Positions 27,621 to 35,567 of a stretch of 38,383 nt of DNA are shown here, one piece after another. The stretch comes from Alistipes sp. (GTDB lineage Bacteria; Bacteroidota; Bacteroidia; Bacteroidales; Rikenellaceae), in the NCBI GenBank assembly GCA_017481925.1, contig JAFUOK010000007.1, positions 1 through 38,383 of the forward strand. The letters run 5' to 3'. The translations under genes and the position numbers were made by a program. The notes under the pieces were generated by a model. The model ran no database searches. It was not told where the DNA came from and saw nothing but the letters and a program-made list of their open reading frames with translations. Position 1 is the first letter of the stretch. Each line of letters starts with the position of its first letter.

Positions 27621-27652
27621 CAAAAATACGTTTTTTCTCCCGTATGTGCAAA
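27621..27652 (-). promoter_or_regulatory. Promoter of queD-polA
   Basis: On the minus strand TTTG (27649-27652), 20-nt spacer, TATTTTTG (27621-27628). The -33 box lies within the T-run of the adjoining terminator, so the two signals are packed together. Confidence 0.75.
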
Positions 27653-27657
27653 AAAAA

Positions 27658-27687
27658 GGGTTCCCCAACTTTTTTGTTGAGCAACCC
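27658..27687 (-). terminator. Terminator of the kbl-lrp transcript
   Basis: GGGTT (27658-27662) with AACCC (27683-27687), and inside it CAAC (27666-27669) with GTTG (27676-27679). On the minus strand TTTTTTTT follows. It lies beyond repeat copy 1. Confidence 0.8.
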
Positions 27688-27698
27688 CTATTATGCCA

Positions 27699-27888
27699 GA
27701 ACGTGTATAACAAGAGGGATTTCAAGGCTTGCGAAGCCCGAAAAAGCGGAGTTTACAGAGGCGTAAATGAGCATTTTAAGGGCGAGCGTAACGTTGCGTT
27801 TAAGCGAGGGCAGAGGGTGCTTGCACACTTTGCCGAGCGAAGCAACGAAAAGGAACTTAACGCAGAAATCACCTTGTTAGACGCGTTC
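27699..27888 (-). repeat. Stem-loop repeat, copy 1 (after lrp)
   Basis: A 190-bp member of the three-copy family. Ends GAACGTGTATAACAAG (27699-27714) and CTTGTTAGACGCGTTC (27873-27888) are complementary at 14 of 16 positions. A central hairpin TTTAC/GTAAA lies at 27752-27767. It is longer than the other copies because of about 65 extra bases near 27795-27860 built from related GCGAGCG/AACG words. It begins 24 nt after the lrp stop, oriented as the others are to their upstream gene. Confidence 0.85.
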
Positions 27889-27912
27889 AAAATATTTTTG
27901 ATTTTCGCTACT

Positions 27913-28386
27913 TTAATCGCCCAAGCAATCTACATAAATCTCACGCTGGAACGACTCGTTGAGCGACATATAGGTCTGCGTGCTCGACACACCCTGCACG
28001 TGCAGAATCTTGTCGAAGATAGTACGCATCAGGTGCTCGTTGTCGATGCAGTAGAGCTTGACCATCAGGTTGTAAGAACCTGTGATGTAGTGGCACTCGA
28101 CGATCTCGGGGATCTTCTTCAGCAGCTCGACAGTGTCCTGCTGACGAGTGATATCGCTCACGCGAATCGAAATAAATGCACACACATCAAAGCCCAATGA
28201 TTTGGGTGCCACCACAAGGCGGCTGCCCTGAATCACGCCCATATCCTCCAACTTCTTGATGCGCTGGTGGATGGCAGCACCCGAAATGCCGCACTCGCGA
28301 GCAATCTCCAAGAATGGCGTACGGGCGTTCTTGATCAGAAAACGGAGGATTTTTTTATCCGTTGCATCCAATGTTGTCTTTGCCAT
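27913..28386 (-). CDS. Lrp/AsnC family transcriptional regulator
   Basis: A 157-residue regulator with an N-terminal helix-turn-helix (LDATDKKILRFLIKNARTPFLEIARECGISGAAIHQRIKKLE read in parts) and a C-terminal RAM/AsnC ligand-binding domain (VCAFISIRVSD, IVECHYITGSYNLMVKLYC). Proteins of this family form octamers and sense amino acids. It follows kbl by 17 nt on the same strand, so it probably controls amino-acid metabolism genes such as kbl itself. Confidence 0.95.
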   Translation of the reverse strand: MAKTTLDATDKKILRFLIKNARTPFLEIARECGISGAAIHQRIKKLEDMGVIQGSRLVVAPKSLGFDVCAFISIRVSDITRQQDTVELLKKIPEIVECHYITGSYNLMVKLYCIDNEHLMRTIFDKILHVQGVSSTQTYMSLNESFQREIYVDCLGD

Positions 28387-28403
28387 AGTCCTTTCTCTCT
28401 TTA

Positions 28404-29591
28404 TTATTTCAATACTCCCAACTCCTTGCCAATCTTCACGAAGGCCTCAACACAGCGGTCGAGCTGCTCGGTTGTGTGACCTGCCGACACCTGCACGCGG
28501 ATACGAGCCTGGCCCTTCGGCACTACGGGGTAGTAGAAGCCCGTAACGAATACGCCCTCCTCCTGCAACTTGGCGGCGAAGTCCTGCGAAAGCTTTGCGT
28601 CGTACAGCATCACGGCGCAGATAGCCGACTGCGTAGGCTTGATGTCGAAGCCTGCAGCGATCATCTTGGTGCGGAAGTGCTCCACATTTGCAGCCAGACG
28701 GTCGTGCAGCTCGTCGCTCTCGGCCAACATCTTGAACATCTCGATACCTGCACCTACTACTGCGGGGGGCAGCGAGTTAGAGAACAGATAGGGACGTGAG
28801 CGCTGACGCAACATATCGATAATCTCCTTGCGACCCGTAGTAAAGCCGCCCACAGCACCACCAAAGGCCTTGCCCAGCGTACCGGTGAGGATATCTACCT
28901 CTCCGCGCAGGTTGTAAAGCTCGGTGATACCGCGACCGGTCTTGCCCAGCACACCTGCCGAGTGGCACTCATCGACCATAACCAGGGCGTCGTACTTCTC
29001 AGCCAGGGCGCAGATCTCATCCAGCGGTGCGGCGTTGCCATCCATAGAGAAGACACCGTCGGTAACGATGATACGGAAACGCTGTGCCTGCGCACGCTTC
29101 AGGCAATCCTCCAGCTCGGCCATATCGGCGTTGGCATAGCGGTAACGCACAGCCTTGCAAAGGCGCACACCGTCGATGATTGAGGCGTGGTTCAGGGCGT
29201 CAGAGATGATGGCATCCTGCTCTGTAAGGAGGGGTTCGAATACACCACCATTAGCATCGAAGCAGGCAGCGTAGAGGATGGTATCCTCGGTGCCGAAGTA
29301 GTCGGCGATAGCCTTCTCCAACTCCTTGTGCATATCCTGGCAACCGCAGATAAAACGTACTGACGACATACCGAAGCCACGCTCGTCCATAGCCTTCTTG
29401 GCCGCCTCGATAAGGCGCGCATTGTCCGAGAGGCCGAGGTAGTTGTTGGCGCAGAAGTTCAATACCTTCTTGCCTGCCACGTCGATCTCGGCACGCTGGG
29501 GTGACTCGATTATTCGTTCGGTCTTATAAAGACCAGCCGCCTTGATGTCGGCCAACTCCTTCTGGAGATGTTCTTTAATTTTTCCGTACAT
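28404..29591 (-). CDS. kbl: Glycine C-acetyltransferase (2-amino-3-ketobutyrate CoA ligase)
   Basis: A 395-residue PLP enzyme, close to the usual 398. It cleaves 2-amino-3-oxobutyrate with CoA to glycine and acetyl-CoA in threonine breakdown. Signatures are LNFCANNYLGLSDN, SVRFICGCQDMHKELE, VDECHSAGVLGKTGRGI and the PLP-lysine loop DILTGTLGKAFGGAVGGF. The serine palmitoyltransferase/KBL family is alpha-oxoamine synthase; the FICG and GTLGKAFGG motifs favour Kbl over the other members. No threonine dehydrogenase gene is in the window. Operon with the Lrp regulator downstream. Confidence 0.93.
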   Translation of the reverse strand: MYGKIKEHLQKELADIKAAGLYKTERIIESPQRAEIDVAGKKVLNFCANNYLGLSDNARLIEAAKKAMDERGFGMSSVRFICGCQDMHKELEKAIADYFGTEDTILYAACFDANGGVFEPLLTEQDAIISDALNHASIIDGVRLCKAVRYRYANADMAELEDCLKRAQAQRFRIIVTDGVFSMDGNAAPLDEICALAEKYDALVMVDECHSAGVLGKTGRGITELYNLRGEVDILTGTLGKAFGGAVGGFTTGRKEIIDMLRQRSRPYLFSNSLPPAVVGAGIEMFKMLAESDELHDRLAANVEHFRTKMIAAGFDIKPTQSAICAVMLYDAKLSQDFAAKLQEEGVFVTGFYYPVVPKGQARIRVQVSAGHTTEQLDRCVEAFVKIGKELGVLK

Positions 29592-29620
29592 AGTTTTCTA
29601 TTTTTTTGTGTTTATGTTTT

Positions 29621-30517
29621 TCAATATTTTCCCAACCTTTCGGCTATTCCGTCCTTGTAGGCACGCCACAGACGAGCCACATCGCTCCACGTCCAACCCT
29701 TCGAGAAGGGTGCCGACACAGCTGCCGTGAGAATATATCCCGCCACACCAATAAATCCGCGCACATAGCGCACGCCCCACGTGCGACCGTAGTGGTGGTT
29801 GAGGTAGGCGGAGTTGCGGACATGGTAGAATCGCTTCCACTTCTTTTTCTGCTGTCGCTCGGCCCACGTGTCGTTGCTAAAGAACAGCTGCTTATCCATC
29901 TGCGCTACAGGAACGTAGAGTATCTTCCACCCTGCCAGCACCGTGCGCAGACAGTAGTCCGTGTCGTCGCAGAAGATAAAGAGCTCCTTGTTGGGCAGGC
30001 CAATCTGCTCGACCACCGCACGACGAATGAATGGGCCCTCGAAGGCCGTGCCGGCGATCTGGATGGTGTCATCGACCTGCATCTTGCGCAGCTTGCCCTC
30101 GTACATCGACGAGAAGGGATTTGTAAGGTTGTAACGCTGAAAATCGTTGGTGTAGATCTTCCCGTCGAGGAATCGACGCGGCGCCAGCATGCCCACCTGC
30201 TCATCCGCAGCCTCCCGAAGCAGAGCCTCCAAGCAGCCCTCGCGTGGGAATACATCGTCGTCCATGCACCATATCCAGTCGGCGCCCATCTTCATGGCGG
30301 CATCGATGCCGGTATAGAAGCCTCCCGAGCCTCCCACATTATCCTGGTGGATAACCTTGAGGTCGGTCTGCTCATCGAGCCACTCGTGCGTGCCGTCGGT
30401 CGAGCCGTTATTAACCACCAGGATGGTGGTCAGCGGACCCTGCTTGCGAAGGCACGAGATGTTCTTCTGGAGCAACTCTCGGCGGTTGAATGTGACGACT
30501 ACTGCTGTGATGTTCAT
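29621..30517 (-). CDS. Family 2 glycosyltransferase (rhamnosyl/galactofuranosyl-type)
   Basis: A 298-residue cytoplasmic GT-A enzyme: ITAVVVTFNRRELLQKNI at the start, VVNNGSTDGT for nucleotide binding, GSGGFYTGIDAAMKMGADWIWCMDDDVFP (read in parts) with the metal-binding DDD motif, and a C-terminal RRxxW-like region. The long-spaced DDD with a following FPREGCLEALL resembles GlfT2 and RfbF-type transferases, which add galactofuranose or rhamnose to surface glycans. Start set at 30515-30517 since the fold begins there; an upstream open frame to 30571 would cover the promoter. Confidence 0.88.
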   Translation of the reverse strand: MNITAVVVTFNRRELLQKNISCLRKQGPLTTILVVNNGSTDGTHEWLDEQTDLKVIHQDNVGGSGGFYTGIDAAMKMGADWIWCMDDDVFPREGCLEALLREAADEQVGMLAPRRFLDGKIYTNDFQRYNLTNPFSSMYEGKLRKMQVDDTIQIAGTAFEGPFIRRAVVEQIGLPNKELFIFCDDTDYCLRTVLAGWKILYVPVAQMDKQLFFSNDTWAERQQKKKWKRFYHVRNSAYLNHHYGRTWGVRYVRGFIGVAGYILTAAVSAPFSKGWTWSDVARLWRAYKDGIAERLGKY

Positions 30518-30540
30518 AACGTGGCACTTACAATTTTCAA

Positions 30541-30571
30541 CAAAATTACAAAACATTATCAACACAAACAA
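30541..30571 (-). promoter_or_regulatory. Promoter of the glycosyltransferase gene
   Basis: On the minus strand TTG (30569-30571), 20-nt spacer, TAATTTTG (30541-30548). It lies in the divergent region between this gene and folE. Confidence 0.6.
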
Positions 30572-30712
30572 CAGTTTTTACTACTTTTTTCGGGTTTTGA
30601 TTACGATTTGTAACACTCTTTGACCCGAAGAGAGAAAAAAGCAAACTACACCGAGGTTTTATTTGTTAATCAACTCTGCGCACCATATTACTTCACATTT
30701 CGGCGCCGGAGG

Positions 30713-30743
30713 TTGGAAAATAGCCAAACAATGATTAACTTTG
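30713..30743 (+). promoter_or_regulatory. Promoter of folE, directly abutting the start codon
   Basis: TTG (30713-30715), 20-nt spacer, TAACTTTG (30736-30743). The expected transcription start is about 30749-30751, which is at or just before the ATG at 30752. Confidence 0.7.
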
Positions 30744-30751
30744 CCTCGTAT

Positions 30752-31357
30752 ATGGAACAGAACTACATTCGCGAAGAGCGTTACGACGCCGACCGCATAG
30801 AAAAACTTGCATACCACTACCGTGAAATTCTCGCCCTGCTGGGTGAGGACCCCGAGCGTGAGGGACTCATCAAGACGCCCGAGCGCGTGGCGAAGGCTAT
30901 GTCATTCGTGACGAAGGGCTATACGCAGGATCCTATCGAGATCATCAACTCGGCAATCTTTACCGAAGAGTATCAGCAGATGGTACTGGTGAAGGATATC
31001 GAACTCTTTTCGATGTGCGAGCACCACATGATGCCCTTCGTGGGCAAGGCGCACGTGGCGTACATCCCCAACGGCAAGATCACGGGTCTCTCAAAAATCG
31101 CCCGCGTAGTGGAGTGCTTTGCCCGCCGCTTGCAGGTGCAGGAGCGCCTGACGGTGCAGATTCGTGACTGCATACAGCAGGCTCTGAACCCCATAGGCGT
31201 GGCCGTGGTTATCGAGGCGAGCCACATGTGCATGCAGATGCGTGGCGTGGAGAAGTTGGGCTCGGCAACCACCACATCAGCCTTTACGGGCGTCTTCCTC
31301 AAGGATACTCGCACGCGCGAAGAATTTTTGACACTAATCAGCAACAAATACCGATAG
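30752..31357 (+). CDS. folE: GTP cyclohydrolase I
   Basis: A 201-residue enzyme that converts GTP to 7,8-dihydroneopterin triphosphate, the first step of folate synthesis and also of the QueD pathway. Zinc and active-site residues are visible in [20 protein letters not shown] (Cys, His), [21 protein letters not shown] read in parts, and [10 protein letters not shown] (second Cys). The C-terminus [10 protein letters not shown] is typical. Start at 30752 ([10 protein letters not shown]) is preferred over the ATG at 30731 because the latter falls inside the -33/-7 promoter pair; this makes the message nearly leaderless. The next gene begins on the very next base after the stop. Confidence 0.94.
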
Positions 31358-32209
31358 ATGTTACGTCGCACATTACATATCATCACCTGCTGCCTGATGC
31401 TCTGCACGGTGGCCTGCTCCCCTGGGCGCACGTCCGGGGGCGAGAGCACATTGAGGGTTATATCGTACAACGTACGTTACACGGGTGAGCGCGAGACCGA
31501 TGGCGAGAACCATTGGGACTGGCGTCGTGCCGCTTCGATCAACATGGTGCGCGAGGAGCGCCCTGCGGTGATGGGCGTGCAGGAGGCTTTGGCAGCGCAG
31601 TTACAGTTTCTGGATGAAAATCTGCCCGAGTATGGCTACGTTGGCGTAGGCCGTGACGATGGCAAGAGCGCTGGCGAGCATATGGCTATCTTCTATCTCA
31701 AAGATGCCGTTGAGCTGGAGAATTGGGGAACATTTTGGCTCTCGCAGACACCCGACGAGGTGACTATGGGCTGGGATGCGGTCTGCTACCGCACCTGCAC
31801 GTGGGCACTGATGCACGACAAGGCTACGGGCAAGCAGTTTGCGATGCTGAACACCCACCTCGACCATCGTGGTGAGGAGGCAAGAGAGCAGAGCATAGTT
31901 CTTATAGTGAATAAAATCAAGGAGTTGGTGCCCGAAGGTGTACCCATCCTGCTGACGGGCGACTTTAACTCTACGACCGACAGCGAGATATATGCTCCCT
32001 TGAAGGCCGTAGCCGATGATGCCCGCGAGGTGGCCACCGAGAGCGACCGCCGAGGCACGTTCAACGGCTGGGGCAAGGCATCGAGCGTTATAGACCACAT
32101 CTTTGTGCGCGGCGTGGAGGTGGATCGCTTCAAGGTGCTGTGCGACAAGAACTATGGTGCGCCATACATCTCGGATCACTACCCCGTGGTGGCCGATGTT
32201 AGATTCTAA
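31358..32209 (+). CDS. Endonuclease/exonuclease/phosphatase lipoprotein, first paralogue
   Basis: A 283-residue lipoprotein (lipobox TVAC, Cys20) with an EEP-fold catalytic domain: VISYNVRYTGERETDGENHW (first strand), VMGVQEAL (metal Glu), GEHMAIFYLKD, LNTHLDHRG (catalytic His), LLTGDFNSTTDSE and ISDHYPVVADV (Asp-His pair). All key residues are present. Exported EEP proteins act as nucleases or phosphodiesterases/phosphatases; here the substrate is unknown. Its ATG follows the folE stop with no gap and it is paired with a second, very similar gene 25 nt later. Confidence 0.9.
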   Translation: MLRRTLHIITCCLMLCTVACSPGRTSGGESTLRVISYNVRYTGERETDGENHWDWRRAASINMVREERPAVMGVQEALAAQLQFLDENLPEYGYVGVGRDDGKSAGEHMAIFYLKDAVELENWGTFWLSQTPDEVTMGWDAVCYRTCTWALMHDKATGKQFAMLNTHLDHRGEEAREQSIVLIVNKIKELVPEGVPILLTGDFNSTTDSEIYAPLKAVADDAREVATESDRRGTFNGWGKASSVIDHIFVRGVEVDRFKVLCDKNYGAPYISDHYPVVADVRF

Positions 32210-32234
32210 TATCAATAACTTAAACCAAATAAAA

Positions 32235-33080
32235 ATGAAAAAGATTCTGTTATTTGCCCTGACGGCAGTGGTAGCACTCAGTGTTACCTCATGTGCCGAG
32301 AAGAAGAACGACATCAAGGTCATCTCGTACAACGTACGTGTAAACAACGAGGGTGACGGCGAGAACAAGTGGGACCTGCGCAAGCACGCCTCAATCGCTA
32401 TGATCCGCGACGAGAAGCCCACAATCTTTGGTCTGCAGGAGGCTAAGCCCGAGCAGATGCAGTACCTGGTGGAGAACCTGCCCGAGTATGGCTACATCGG
32501 CGTAGGCCGCGAGGATGGTGTATCATCGGGTGAGCACATGACTATCTTCTACCTGAAGGATCAGGTGGAGTTGCTCGACGGTGGCACCTTCTGGCTCTCG
32601 GAGACCCCCGAGGAGCCCTCGATGGGTTGGGATGCTGCGTGCAAGCGCTCTTGCACCTGGACCAAGCTGCGTATGAAGGATACGGGCAAGGAGTTCGCAT
32701 ATATCAACACCCACCTCGACCACGTAGGCAAGGTGGCACAGCGTGAGGGTCTGGCTCTGATCGTTGAGCGCTTCGCCGAGATCGTGCCCGTAGGTATGCC
32801 CGCATTCCTGACGGCCGACTTCAACGCCCTGACCACGGATCCTATCTTCGAGCCCCTGAAGGCTGCTATGCTGGATGCTCGTGAGGTGGCCCCCGAGACC
32901 GACCGCCGTGCTACATTCAACGCTTGGCAGGCAGGTGGCGAGGATAACCAGAACCGCGTTATCGACCACATCTTCTTCCGTGGTGCCGAGGCTCACACGT
33001 TCAAGGTGTTGCGCGACAAGGATTATGGTGCTCCCTTTATTTCGGATCACTATCCCGTAGTTATGACCGCAACCTTCTAA
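32235..33080 (+). CDS. Endonuclease/exonuclease/phosphatase lipoprotein, second paralogue
   Basis: A 281-residue lipoprotein (MKKILLFALTAVVALSVTSC, Cys20). Aligned by eye, it shares most blocks with the first copy: VISYNVRVNNEGDGENKWDL, IFGLQEAK, GYIGVGREDG, NTHLDHVGKVA, FLTADFNALTTDP, RVIDHIFFRGAE and ISDHYPVVMTATF. This indicates a tandem duplication. All catalytic residues are retained, so both copies should be active, perhaps with different substrate specificity. Start at 32235 because the signal peptide begins there after an A-rich leader. Repeat copy 2 starts at its last base. Confidence 0.92.
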   Translation: MKKILLFALTAVVALSVTSCAEKKNDIKVISYNVRVNNEGDGENKWDLRKHASIAMIRDEKPTIFGLQEAKPEQMQYLVENLPEYGYIGVGREDGVSSGEHMTIFYLKDQVELLDGGTFWLSETPEEPSMGWDAACKRSCTWTKLRMKDTGKEFAYINTHLDHVGKVAQREGLALIVERFAEIVPVGMPAFLTADFNALTTDPIFEPLKAAMLDAREVAPETDRRATFNAWQAGGEDNQNRVIDHIFFRGAEAHTFKVLRDKDYGAPFISDHYPVVMTATF

Positions 33081-33200
33081 ATATTGCCTAACAAGTCTCT
33101 TTTGGCGTCTGGCTTGCCCTCGAAATCCTCATTTACGAAGAGTAAACTGCGGTTTCTCGGTCTGCGACCAGCCTCAAAATAGTTCTTGTTATACAATATT
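33080..33200 (+). repeat. Stem-loop repeat, copy 2 (after the second EEP gene)
   Basis: 121 bp. Ends AATATTGCCTAACAAG (33080-33095) and CTTGTTATACAATATT (33185-33200) pair at 14 of 16 positions. The central hairpin is TTTAC (33132-33136) with GTAAA (33142-33146). In the middle it shares the words GCTTGCCCTCGAAATCCTCA and CTGCGGTTTCTCGG with copy 3. Confidence 0.88.
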
Positions 33201-33211
33201 TACTTAATCAT

Positions 33212-33252
33212 GTGTAGGCTACTAACTTTTCAGTTGGTAGCCTATACTTTTG
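33212..33252 (+). terminator. Terminator of the folE-EEP operon
   Basis: A 15-bp stem, GTGTAGGCTACTAAC (33212-33226) with GTTGGTAGCCTATAC (33233-33247), two G-U pairs, loop TTTTCA, followed by TTTTG. Confidence 0.88.
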
Positions 33253-33263
33253 CTATATTTTTG
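33234..33263 (+). promoter_or_regulatory. Promoter of mrp, embedded in the terminator
   Basis: TTG (33234-33236), 19-nt spacer, TATTTTTG (33256-33263); a second -7-like box TATCTTTG is at 33265-33272. The -33 element lies inside the 3' arm of the preceding terminator stem. Confidence 0.5.
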
Positions 33264-33295
33264 CTATCTTTGCTTATCAAAAAACTACAAACATT

Positions 33296-34339
33296 ATGGA
33301 ACAACAAATACGAAAACTCCTCTCGGCGATCGTACACCCCGAGACGCAGCAGGATATTGTTGCAAGTGGCGTGGTGGAGCAGCTCTCGGCCCGCGAGGAT
33401 AAGATAACGGTCGTGTTGTGCTTCCCCAAGGCTCGCGACCCCTTTGCCGTGCGTATCCGCAACCTTGTGGAGAAGACCTTGCAGGATGCCTATCCCGCCG
33501 CCGCAGGCAATATCACCGTAGTAATCAAGGAGGGCACACCCCGCCCGCCACAGCCCAAGCGCGAGAGCACCACGGTCAAGGTGGGCAAGATCATCGCCAT
33601 AGCCTCGGGTAAGGGTGGCGTGGGCAAATCAACCGTAACGGCCAACCTCGCACTCACGCTGCGCAATATGGGTTACCGCGTGGGCGTGCTGGATGCCGAT
33701 ATTTACGGCCCCTCGCAGCATAAGATGTTCGGACGGGAGGATTACCTGCCCGAAGCCGTGCAGGAGGATGGCAACGACTACATCGTGCCGGCCCAGAGCA
33801 TGGATATCGAGCTGATGTCAATCGGTTTCTTCATCAACCCCAACGATGCGCTGATGTGGCGCGGAGCGATGGCGACGAACGCCCTGAAGCAGTTGTTGCA
33901 CCAGACGATGTGGGGCGGCCTGGATTTTCTCCTCATAGACATGCCCCCGGGAACAGGCGATATACATCTGACGATGATCTCGGAGATCAAGATGGACGGA
34001 GCGGTGATTGTATCTACACCCCAGCAGGTGGCCGTTGCCGACGTTGTGCGTGGCGTGGAGATGTTCCGCCACGAGCAGGTGGCAGTGCCCGTACTGGGTG
34101 TTGTGGAGAATATGGCGTGGTTCACGCCCAAGGAGTTGCCCGACAACAAGTATTACATCTTCGGTCAGGGTGGCGCCAAGCGCTATGCCGAGGAGGCGGG
34201 CGTGCCTTTCCTCGGAGAGATACCTCTCATTCAGACCATTATGGAGGGTGGCGAGTGCGGAACACCTACCGTGGAGACCGATGCCGACGTGGAGCGCTAC
34301 TACCGTGCCGTGGCAGAGAAGATGATCCAACAGTTGTAG
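33296..34339 (+). CDS. Mrp/NBP35 family P-loop ATPase (iron-sulfur carrier type, no CXXC)
   Basis: A 347-residue cytoplasmic protein: an N-terminal MIP18/DUF59-like part (1-90, [18 protein letters not shown]), a linker, then the deviant Walker [51 protein letters not shown] and [15 protein letters not shown]. It belongs to ApbC/Mrp proteins that carry or insert [4Fe-4S] clusters. The usual CXXC that holds the cluster, expected just after GVVENM, is replaced by [17 protein letters not shown]; no CXXC occurs elsewhere in the protein. I believe this variant is common in Bacteroidetes, so a changed mode of cluster binding or another role is possible. Confidence 0.93.
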
Positions 34340-34378
34340 GTCGCTGCAGAAGATAGATGAGATAAGTGAAATATGTGA

Positions 34379-34443
34379 TATAGGTGTAATAGGTGTTATA
34401 ATCTGTTGCACCTATTTTCTTTATTACACCTATAACACCTATA
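34379..34443. repeat. Inverted array of AGGTGT words after mrp
   Basis: TATAGGTGTAATAGGTGT (starting 34379) faces ACACCTATAACACCTATA (ending 34443), with a further GCACCTATT between. The two arms pair over about 20 positions with two mismatches. It may end mrp transcription. Confidence 0.6.
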
Positions 34444-34457
34444 TACTATTATAGATC

Positions 34458-34582
34458 AAGAAGTTGTATAACAAGTGGGATTTTAAGGCCTGCGAAGTCC
34501 GAGAAACCGCAGCATACTATGGCGTATGTGAGGATTTCGAGGACAAGCATAACGCAAAAATCACCTTGTTATACAACTTCTT
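34458..34582 (-). repeat. Stem-loop repeat, copy 3 (after corA)
   Basis: 125 bp with perfect 18-bp inverted ends: AAGAAGTTGTATAACAAG (34458-34475) and CTTGTTATACAACTTCTT (34565-34582). The central hairpin is CATAC (34513-34517) with GTATG (34524-34528), where copies 1 and 2 have TTTAC with GTAAA. Between them lie GTCC/GGAC and GAAA/TTTC pairs. It starts 1 nt after the corA stop. Confidence 0.9.
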
Positions 34583-34583
34583 T

Positions 34584-35567
34584 TTATAACCACTTCTTAT
34601 AGCGGAAAAACCAAATCGTCAGTCCCGACGCCATAACCATCAACCCTATGGCGAAGATATAACCCAACGGCAGGGTGATATCACCGATCTGCCACACCCA
34701 ATCCAGCTCGGGCATAAAGTGGAAGTTCATACCGTAGATACTCGCGATAAGCGTCGCGGGCATGAAGATTACGGCAGCCACCGAGAAGATCTTCACGATC
34801 TCGTTCTGCTCGATGTTGATCAGACCCAGAGCCGAATCCTGAATATAATCCAGACGCTGCGAACTGAAGTCGGCGTGGTTGATAAGCGAATTGACGTCCT
34901 TGATCATCAACTGCAGACGCGGATAGATATCGTTCGGGAAGCGCTCACTACGCAGGATGTTGGATAGGATACGCTGGCGATCGACGAAGTTCTCGCGAAG
35001 GACCATCGTGCTCTCCTGCAAGGCGTTGATACGGTGGATAACCTCCTTGTCGATGGTATCCTCGGTGTTGATATCCTTGCTCAACTTGGCAACCTGTTTG
35101 GCCACCAACTCCACAAGGTCGGCATCGAAGTCGATGCGTACCTCCAGCAGCGAGATGAAGATATGGTAGCCCGTAGAGTAACTGCGGTAGTTCATCTGCA
35201 GGCGTTTCTCGGTCTCGCGGAAGGTTCGTGACTCGGCCGTACGTTGCGACACGAGCACACCCTCGTTAGAGATGATGAACGACACGGGCTCCACGTCGAA
35301 CGTGCCGTCGGGCTTGGGAATGAAGAAGTTGGTGTTGGAGATAATCGAATTCTCGTTCTCCGAGTACTTTGATGTTGACTCGATCTCCTCTACCTGCTGA
35401 CGTGTCTGGAGGCTCTCCTCCATAAAGTTCTCTACGGCCTTCTGCTCCTTGATCGAGGGTGAGAGCAGGTCTAACCACAAAATATCATCGTAGCCCAGAT
35501 TGTCCAGCAATTCGGGCTCGGCGTTGCGTATAATCTTGTTGTATTGCTTGAGGTAAATAGTAAGCAT
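34584..35567 (-). CDS. corA: Magnesium/cobalt transporter CorA
   Basis: A 327-residue inner-membrane channel. The large N-terminal cytoplasmic domain (about 1-265) includes DILWLDLLSPSIKEQ and the long helix region DSALGLINIEQNEIVKIFS. Two C-terminal helices follow; the first ends in the ion-selective motif YGMNFHFMP and the second is LPLGYIFAIGLMVMASGLTIWFF read in parts, with a basic tail YKKWL that faces the cytoplasm. It forms a pentameric Mg2+ channel. Start at the ATG at 35565-35567; a TTG three codons earlier is less likely. Confidence 0.95.
   Translation of the reverse strand: MLTIYLKQYNKIIRNAEPELLDNLGYDDILWLDLLSPSIKEQKAVENFMEESLQTRQQVEEIESTSKYSENENSIISNTNFFIPKPDGTFDVEPVSFIISNEGVLVSQRTAESRTFRETEKRLQMNYRSYSTGYHIFISLLEVRIDFDADLVELVAKQVAKLSKDINTEDTIDKEVIHRINALQESTMVLRENFVDRQRILSNILRSERFPNDIYPRLQLMIKDVNSLINHADFSSQRLDYIQDSALGLINIEQNEIVKIFSVAAVIFMPATLIASIYGMNFHFMPELDWVWQIGDITLPLGYIFAIGLMVMASGLTIWFFRYKKWL

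Follow-up and report, generated by a model that had tools for sequence, protein, structure and literature searches.

Among the small palindromic repeats described from bacteria, ERIC (IRU, RU-1) comes closest to the element reported here: like it, ERIC is an imperfect palindrome (~127 bp) that forms one long stem-loop. The parts of the sources available to us describe ERIC as an element of Enterobacteriaceae and Vibrionaceae that has TA termini and 7-bp inverted repeats, and state that in Yersinia copies at gene 3' ends affect mRNA via RNase E (PMC2229807, PMC10969869), the orientation being crucial for this effect (PMC2229807). QMITE2 of Coxiella burnetii (150-190 bp) is, according to the accessible part of its description, mainly located in 3' untranslated and intergenic sequence and overlaps five named gene ends by 1-10 bp (PMC5896051), and Correia/NEMIS, RUP and YPAL are grouped with ERIC as small palindromic non-autonomous repeats in the portion of that literature at hand (PMC2229807). 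We analysed a stretch of 38,383 nucleotides from Alistipes sp. (contig JAFUOK010000007.1; C74 of a draft genome of 1.90 Mb in 78 contigs, 84% complete), the whole of which is here called the window, and which contains three copies of a palindromic repeat, each next to a stop codon. We lean towards reading this repeat as a stop-codon-anchored variant of a non-autonomous ERIC-type palindromic mobile element, ~125 bp long in the form seen in this genus.

The Alistipes element and ERIC both show, when compared by eye, a central TCA-stem-loop-stem-CTCC and a CTGCGTT-CGCT stretch. Unlike ERIC with its TA termini, the Alistipes element has copy-specific ends without a general TA, and it occurs in Bacteroidales. 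QMITE2 is a precedent for the position at gene 3' ends, although it could be compared by its partly accessible description and not by sequence; there it is given direct repeats of 7-11 nt, unique for each copy, and a GTAG REP, whereas the Alistipes element is without such a duplication. Correia/NEMIS, RUP and YPAL, as far as the available text describes them, resemble it by architecture only. A stop-codon-anchored palindrome in Alistipes or Bacteroidales was not found described in the open-access literature, most subscription papers being outside the reach of that search.

Copy number and placement at stop codons

An earlier note on this DNA had described the three copies as stem-loops located 0-24 nt beyond a stop codon and facing the same way relative to the gene, and all three are present at these sites, with the ends of copy 2 adjusted (Table 1). 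For the genome search we used a covariance model with a single stem and 125 positions, built from 28 copies; the A2 alignment comprises 28 of 30 loci, L017 and L028 having been dropped as insert variants or partial copies. The search revealed 63 distinct places in the genome (64 rows, one of which is the opposite strand of copy 3) and thus bore out the proposed family, which at E values up to 0.01 also had 2 to 84 matches each in 17 of the 24 sampled genomes of the same genus and none in the other seven. Outside the genus, 7 of 16 genomes of the order carry 1 to 5 matches. Alistipes sp. or Rikenellaceae accounted for 48 of 80 same-core records among the matches listed.

By a simple longest-open-reading-frame (longest-ORF) scheme of gene calling, a same-strand upstream gene precedes the element in 56 of the 63 places, so the constant orientation seen in the window extends to most copies of the genome. 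The spacing is tighter genome-wide than the three copies had indicated: 45 of 63 start within 5 nt of the upstream gene's stop codon, against 6.2 expected under uniform placement in the same gaps, and none of 20,000 simulations reached the observed number. At the commonest offset (14/63) the stop codon occupies model positions 1 to 3, so that pairing starts at its last base or at the base before that; in copy 2 the paired arm includes the stop codon itself. Where genes converge, the copy is nearer to the stop codon of the sense gene in 28 of 31 gaps. Placement in other species was read from 41 matches in 40 loci taken from the best-scoring ones (20 of 47 in G015, 20 of 62 in G021, and one in G005). 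The sampled copies of G015 are sense in 14 of 20 cases, all 14 within 5 nt of the stop codon, and those of G021 are sense in 18 of 20 and within 5 nt in 12 of 20. This anchoring poses the question of whether the element is aimed at stop codons or merely survives there.

A terminator-like hairpin was recognised by a strict scan within 95 nt downstream of the element in 38 of 63 places, compared to 13 in reversed and 2 to 8 in shuffled sequence, 13 on the upstream side and 6 at a greater distance downstream; a lenient scan was also positive in 21 to 30 of 63 controls, and the terminator counts given here use the strict scan. The element thus often sits between the stop codon and a terminator and is probably not itself the terminator, because a separate terminator-like hairpin comes after it in these 38 places. 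At the corA site of genome G001 (L244), an oppositely oriented copy lies beyond a terminator-like hairpin.

Paired arms and the nature of the palindrome

In an alignment of 57 matches from 54 loci (A4), 93.3% of the cells of a 36-pair structure were paired, against 72.9% when shuffled and 33-49% when slid, although A4, like alignments A3, A5 and A6, was fitted to the models' structure and is biased towards pairing. Both sides have changed in 32 of the 36 pairs, with 393 both-side cells against 17 one-side cells. The outer nine bases were counted after removal of two insert variants and one partial match, which leaves 60 of the 63 places, as in the direct-repeat counts below. They pair at 7.0 of 9 positions with their own partner and at 4.6 of 9 with swapped partners, and 0 of 2000 permutations reached the observed value, which confirms for the genome what had been claimed for the window, that the outer arms differ from copy to copy and are paired within each. 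The edge of the stem is sharp at model position 2/3, with Watson-Crick values of 0.68 and 0.90 against 0.15 to 0.30 outside. The left outer 9-mers comprise 50 distinct sequences among 60 copies, so the arms are copy-specific, and terminal inverted repeats are not common to the copies: the outer arms differ and the inner stem (TAACAAG) is mostly common. The outer arms are A-rich at 5' and T-rich at 3', and the base of the stem is AT-rich.

RNA helices tolerate G·U pairs, and A·C much less; counting the two kinds of mismatch offers an inexpensive way, applicable to any covarying repeat, to distinguish a DNA palindrome from an RNA fold. We restricted this count to pairs with at least 75% Watson-Crick, a rule that dropped 5, 4, 7 and 9 of 39 pairs in the four alignments. 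The resulting G·U:A·C numbers were 21:36 (A4), 10:19 (A6), 33:61 (A3; this set was retrieved by a core pattern, so that its inner pairs are set by the search itself) and 33:47 (A5); G·U made up 0.7 to 1.5% of the standard pairs and was rarer than A·C in all four alignments. As a control, the fixed-position stems of 21 tRNAs from the same loci contained 324 Watson-Crick, 21 G·U (6.1%), 4 A·C and 8 other pairs. One column pair stands out, being T·G in 56 of 57 (A4), 36 of 41 (A6), 72 of 88 (A3) and 62 of 81 (A5) rows, and never or rarely Watson-Crick. With all pairs kept, G·U:A·C was 88:71 (A4), 46:51 (A6), 129:117 (A3) and 128:114 (A5), and with only this column pair removed it was 32:71, 10:51, 57:117 and 66:114, respectively. 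In our reading, the T·G column pair is a mismatch conserved within an internal loop; a genuine G·U pair is possible as well.

Taken together, the pattern of change resembles what a strand-symmetric palindrome would leave, whether through a DNA hairpin, a DNA-binding palindrome or copying from arm to arm. Mainly because the pairing changes look strand-symmetric, with scarce G·U, the RNA-fold reading is not accepted as it stands. The earlier note had taken paired change as the mark of a selected fold: the covariation at several levels was recovered, whereas the step from paired change to a fold of the RNA is only partly supported, since A·C exceeds G·U in well-kept pairs; given the counts with all pairs kept, an RNA part is possible. 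Lists of candidate structured RNAs based on covariation alone may include such palindromes.

Relatives, turnover and rival explanations

For comparison with ERIC, a typed 44-base core served to retrieve Escherichia coli copies. They represent three distinct loci, of which two (ybhI and narK) are sense and directly past the stop codon, and the third is antisense between pgk and fbaA. When 12 kb were searched with model R1, four ERIC stretches came top (17.0, 17.0, 14.7 and 11.3 bits); in 56 kb searched unfiltered, three ERICs occupied ranks 1-3 on the same strand both with model R2 (22.4, 20.6 and 18.2 bits; next 14.2) and with model R3 (20.8, 18.4 and 17.1 bits; next 14.9). Judged from this sequence likeness, kinship with ERIC is probable but not proven, because the scores are low. 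If the relation is true, ERIC would belong, as a single branch, to a much larger family that extends to Rickettsia, Nitrosomonadales, Pseudomonas and several Bacteroidota, and this larger family would offer new ways to search for the mobilising enzyme.

A degenerate core pattern matched, among the matches listed, at least many Bacteroidota, Rickettsia, Nitrosomonadales, Pseudomonas insulae and other proteobacterial records. A second model had matches in 17 of 17 distant source genomes, with 8 to at least 150 each (E up to 1); presence in all 17 is expected, because these genomes were picked by their core matches, and what deserves attention is the high copy number, which at E up to 0.01 still amounts to 112 copies in a Rickettsia genome and 28 in Pseudomonas. 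The gene strand was determined for 77 of 81 distant matches, with totals summed over groups: the upstream ORF was sense in 32, antisense in 40 and absent in 5, and 18 of the 77 combined sense orientation with a distance of at most 30 nt from a stop codon. Contig ends cut off the downstream context of many Nitrosomonadales copies. Symmetric TA at the stem ends was found in 13 of 16 Rickettsia copies (16 of 17 counted), 2 of 2 Nitrosomonadales copies (2 of 17 counted), 1 of 3 copies of another gamma genome (3 of 4 counted), 2 of 15 in Pseudomonas and 1 of 18 in Cytophagaceae/Lentimicrobiaceae/Prevotellaceae, the last group of six being left out. Across phyla, the core is thus common and the ends are not; TA ends are general in some groups only, and there is no general anchoring at stop codons. 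In the Nitrosomonadales draft G043 (L377-L393), a near-identical copy of the element lies less than about 15 bases from the end in 16 of the 17 stretches retrieved; the repeat thus interrupts assemblies.

Sites differ in occupancy between relatives. G010, in which the flanking genes are ~90% identical, is without copy 1 and without the copy at C72:24057, and it has other sequence at the site of copy 2; it retains the copies at C10 and C54:19009, the latter also retained by G016. At site B, which is the stop codon of one gene, different variants are present in three species (G000, G154 and G098) and none in the six other relatives read; site C is element-free in 9 of 9 relatives read. In one subfamily, the copies remain alike beyond the right arm, up to roughly where the terminator stem ends, and no further, and their left flanks show no likeness; the copied unit can therefore include the terminator. 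This likeness had raised the idea of retro-copying of transcript 3' ends, which was set aside because RVT_1 (PF00078) is absent from the drafts (80 to 96% complete) of G000, G001, G005 and G021, the holders of most copies. Another idea, that the outer arms are host terminator stems split by insertion, came from the occurrence of GYCTAACAAG in nearby terminators and was dropped, as terminator-like hairpins persist downstream.

Under the preferred reading, a stop-codon-anchored relative of ERIC, copies would spread as DNA via an enzyme supplied in trans, and the palindrome would be maintained through acting, or being copied, as a DNA hairpin, which might explain why the arms stay exact complements despite sequence change. 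Insertion or retention may be favoured in the short gap between stop codon and terminator. The mRNA would gain a long hairpin starting from the stop codon, part of which a terminating ribosome would have to open, and the lifetime of the upstream mRNA would probably be altered, by analogy with Yersinia ERIC. Several results weigh against this reading. An element that acts purely as DNA would not be expected to lie sense to genes or to be anchored at their stop codons, features that agree with a role of the RNA; the gene calls behind these placements come from a simple longest-ORF scheme. Should the T·G column pair be a genuine G·U pair, three of the four alignments would contain more G·U than A·C. 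The ERIC scores amount to 17 to 22 bits with R2 and R3, and a palindrome as such could draw matches. Some copies are inherited, because their sites are common to G010 (C10, C54:19009) and G016 (C54:19009). Direct repeats of at least 5 nt flank 10 of 60 copies, against 7.5 with swapped flanks, so no target-site duplication rises above the control, and symmetric TA at the stem ends is present in just 14 of 59 own copies (one of the 60 gave no stem). A mobilising enzyme was not found among the three families tested in 25 incomplete drafts, other transposase families not having been searched for: the Y1 transposase (PF01797; TnpA-REP), expected for a REP/REPIN with its RAYT, occurred in 0 of 25 genomes, the same search being positive in 5 of 14 control genomes, DDE_3 (PF13358) exceeded the cut-off in 0 of 25, and RVT_1, present in 9 of 25 and among the copy-rich genomes in G014 and G015 only, is missing from the four copy-rich drafts mentioned above, which are 80 to 96% complete.

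The orientation and anchoring would be natural for an element working at the RNA level, in which the sense transcript forms a hairpin at the stop codon with an effect on the mRNA (protection, processing or destabilisation) and the pairs are maintained by selection on this RNA, and we regard this as possible, if clearly the less probable account. The sense orientation in 56 and the close setting in 45 of 63 places, the location between stop codon and, in 38, a terminator-like hairpin, the covariation of 32 of 36 pairs, the nearly fixed T·G column pair in A4, and the 3'-end effect of Yersinia ERIC on mRNA through RNase E, as given in the accessible parts of its descriptions (PMC10969869, PMC2229807), all speak for it; against these stand the low G·U content (~1%, rarer than A·C in every alignment, where tRNAs give 21:4) and the same-core relatives elsewhere, which are not placed by gene strand. 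The earlier note had named random orientation, unpaired arms and target-site duplications as findings that would overturn its view, and for the most part the opposite was found: orientation is non-random, the arms still pair, and no duplication exceeds the control. Scarce G·U without excess over A·C in well-kept pairs, and the preponderance of both-side over one-side changes, also agree with mutational homogenisation, in which template switching during replication of the hairpin copies arm onto arm and no selection on DNA or RNA function is needed. This seems rather unlikely to us, as such a process should erase conserved unpaired or mismatched places that persist, such as C opposite T (model positions 11-115) and TCA opposite the CTCC/CTGC loop. 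An ordinary miniature inverted-repeat transposable element (MITE), a cut-down insertion sequence with fixed terminal inverted repeats, a target-site duplication and a resident transposase, we consider unlikely for the Alistipes copies, whose outer arms are copy-specific, whose symmetric TA is infrequent, whose direct repeats do not exceed the control, and for which none of the three enzyme families fits (an autonomous copy with matching ends was not searched for); it gains from the Rickettsia and Nitrosomonadales copies with symmetric TA and long shared ends. The contention that these are not ordinary transposon ends was consequently half right: it holds for the copy-specific arms of this genome and not for some same-core relatives, which are TA-flanked inverted repeats (13 of 16 in Rickettsia). 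We also find it improbable, though it would explain copy-specific, nearly Watson-Crick-only arms without RNA selection, that the repeats form a superfamily with one conserved apical core and exchangeable ends, and that in this genus an enzyme sets copies in sense exactly at stop codons, new outer arms arising at every site as the local sequence is copied, exactly and in inverted form, into one of them. That the element is itself an intrinsic transcription terminator, as the role in transcription end suggested in the earlier note would have it, is very unlikely in view of the AT-rich base of the stem and the separate downstream hairpins, more frequent than in the controls, notwithstanding the A-rich and T-rich outer arms, the position in the 3' untranslated region and the 25 of 63 copies without a strict hairpin after them. 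Integron attC sites have an R'' box with the consensus RYYYAAC and a conserved AAC/GTT triplet in the R'' and R' boxes. An attC-like recombination site would match the palindrome past a stop codon in fixed orientation and the 5' box GYCTAAC, which resembles the R'' box, but we give it hardly any credence: the triplet lacks conservation, with C in only 35 of 60 copies at model position 15; 51 of 60 copies carry T in the 3' box at position 115, which calls for a purine; and the copies are dispersed and not in cassette arrays.

Copies and neighbouring features in the window

Table 1. Positions of the three copies and of the features next to them in the window
Feature	Position	Strand	Remarks
Copy 1, long variant	27699..27888	-	arms GAACG/CGTTC; begins 24 nt past the lrp stop codon (27913-27915)
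Internal insert of copy 1, 69 nt	27794..27862	-	TAACG direct repeats at 27789-27793 and 27858-27862
Terminator-like hairpin with T run, separate, downstream of copy 1	27650..27689	-	stem 14
lrp-type regulator gene, with copy 1 on its 3' side	27913..28386	-	from the ORF list; name from the earlier note
Copy 2	33078..33202	+	arms TAAATATTG/CAATATTTA; the TAA stop codon (33078-33080) forms the first three bases of the arm
Terminator-like hairpin with T run, separate, after copy 2	33212..33251	+	stem 13
Copy 3	34458..34582	-	1 nt past the corA stop codon (34584-34586); inner hairpin CATAC/GTATG
Imperfect hairpin between mrp and copy 3	34378..34444		24-nt arms, 92% complementary

The outer arms of copy 3 are AAGAAGTTG/CAACTTCTT; those of the three copies differ from each other and pair within each copy. 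Copies 1 and 2 have the inner hairpin TTTAC/GTAAA; the switch to CATAC/GTATG, observed in the earlier note, is that of copy 3. Two copies were folded as single-stranded DNA of the sense strand, and both lie far below their dinucleotide shuffles (copy 3, z -7.2; copy 2, z -4.2). The insert variant represented by copy 1 recurs in the same genome at C49:8478, where 66 nt of the insert stretch are 94% identical, and was recognised by eye in G154 (L450) too; for this reason it seems to spread as a longer form.

Even the lenient scan detected no terminator in the 95 nt that follow copy 3. The imperfect hairpin located between this copy and mrp is a possible, weak candidate for a shared terminator. 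None of the three copies matched an Rfam family at E up to 1; the search returned two chance-level matches (mir-3479 and sot0042), neither of them on the copies. A chance-level match to an Rfam microRNA family at 34361-34434 overlaps the imperfect hairpin. The segment 31358-33080 holds two adjacent endonuclease/exonuclease/phosphatase-like genes with 54.8% protein identity, which look like a tandem duplication.

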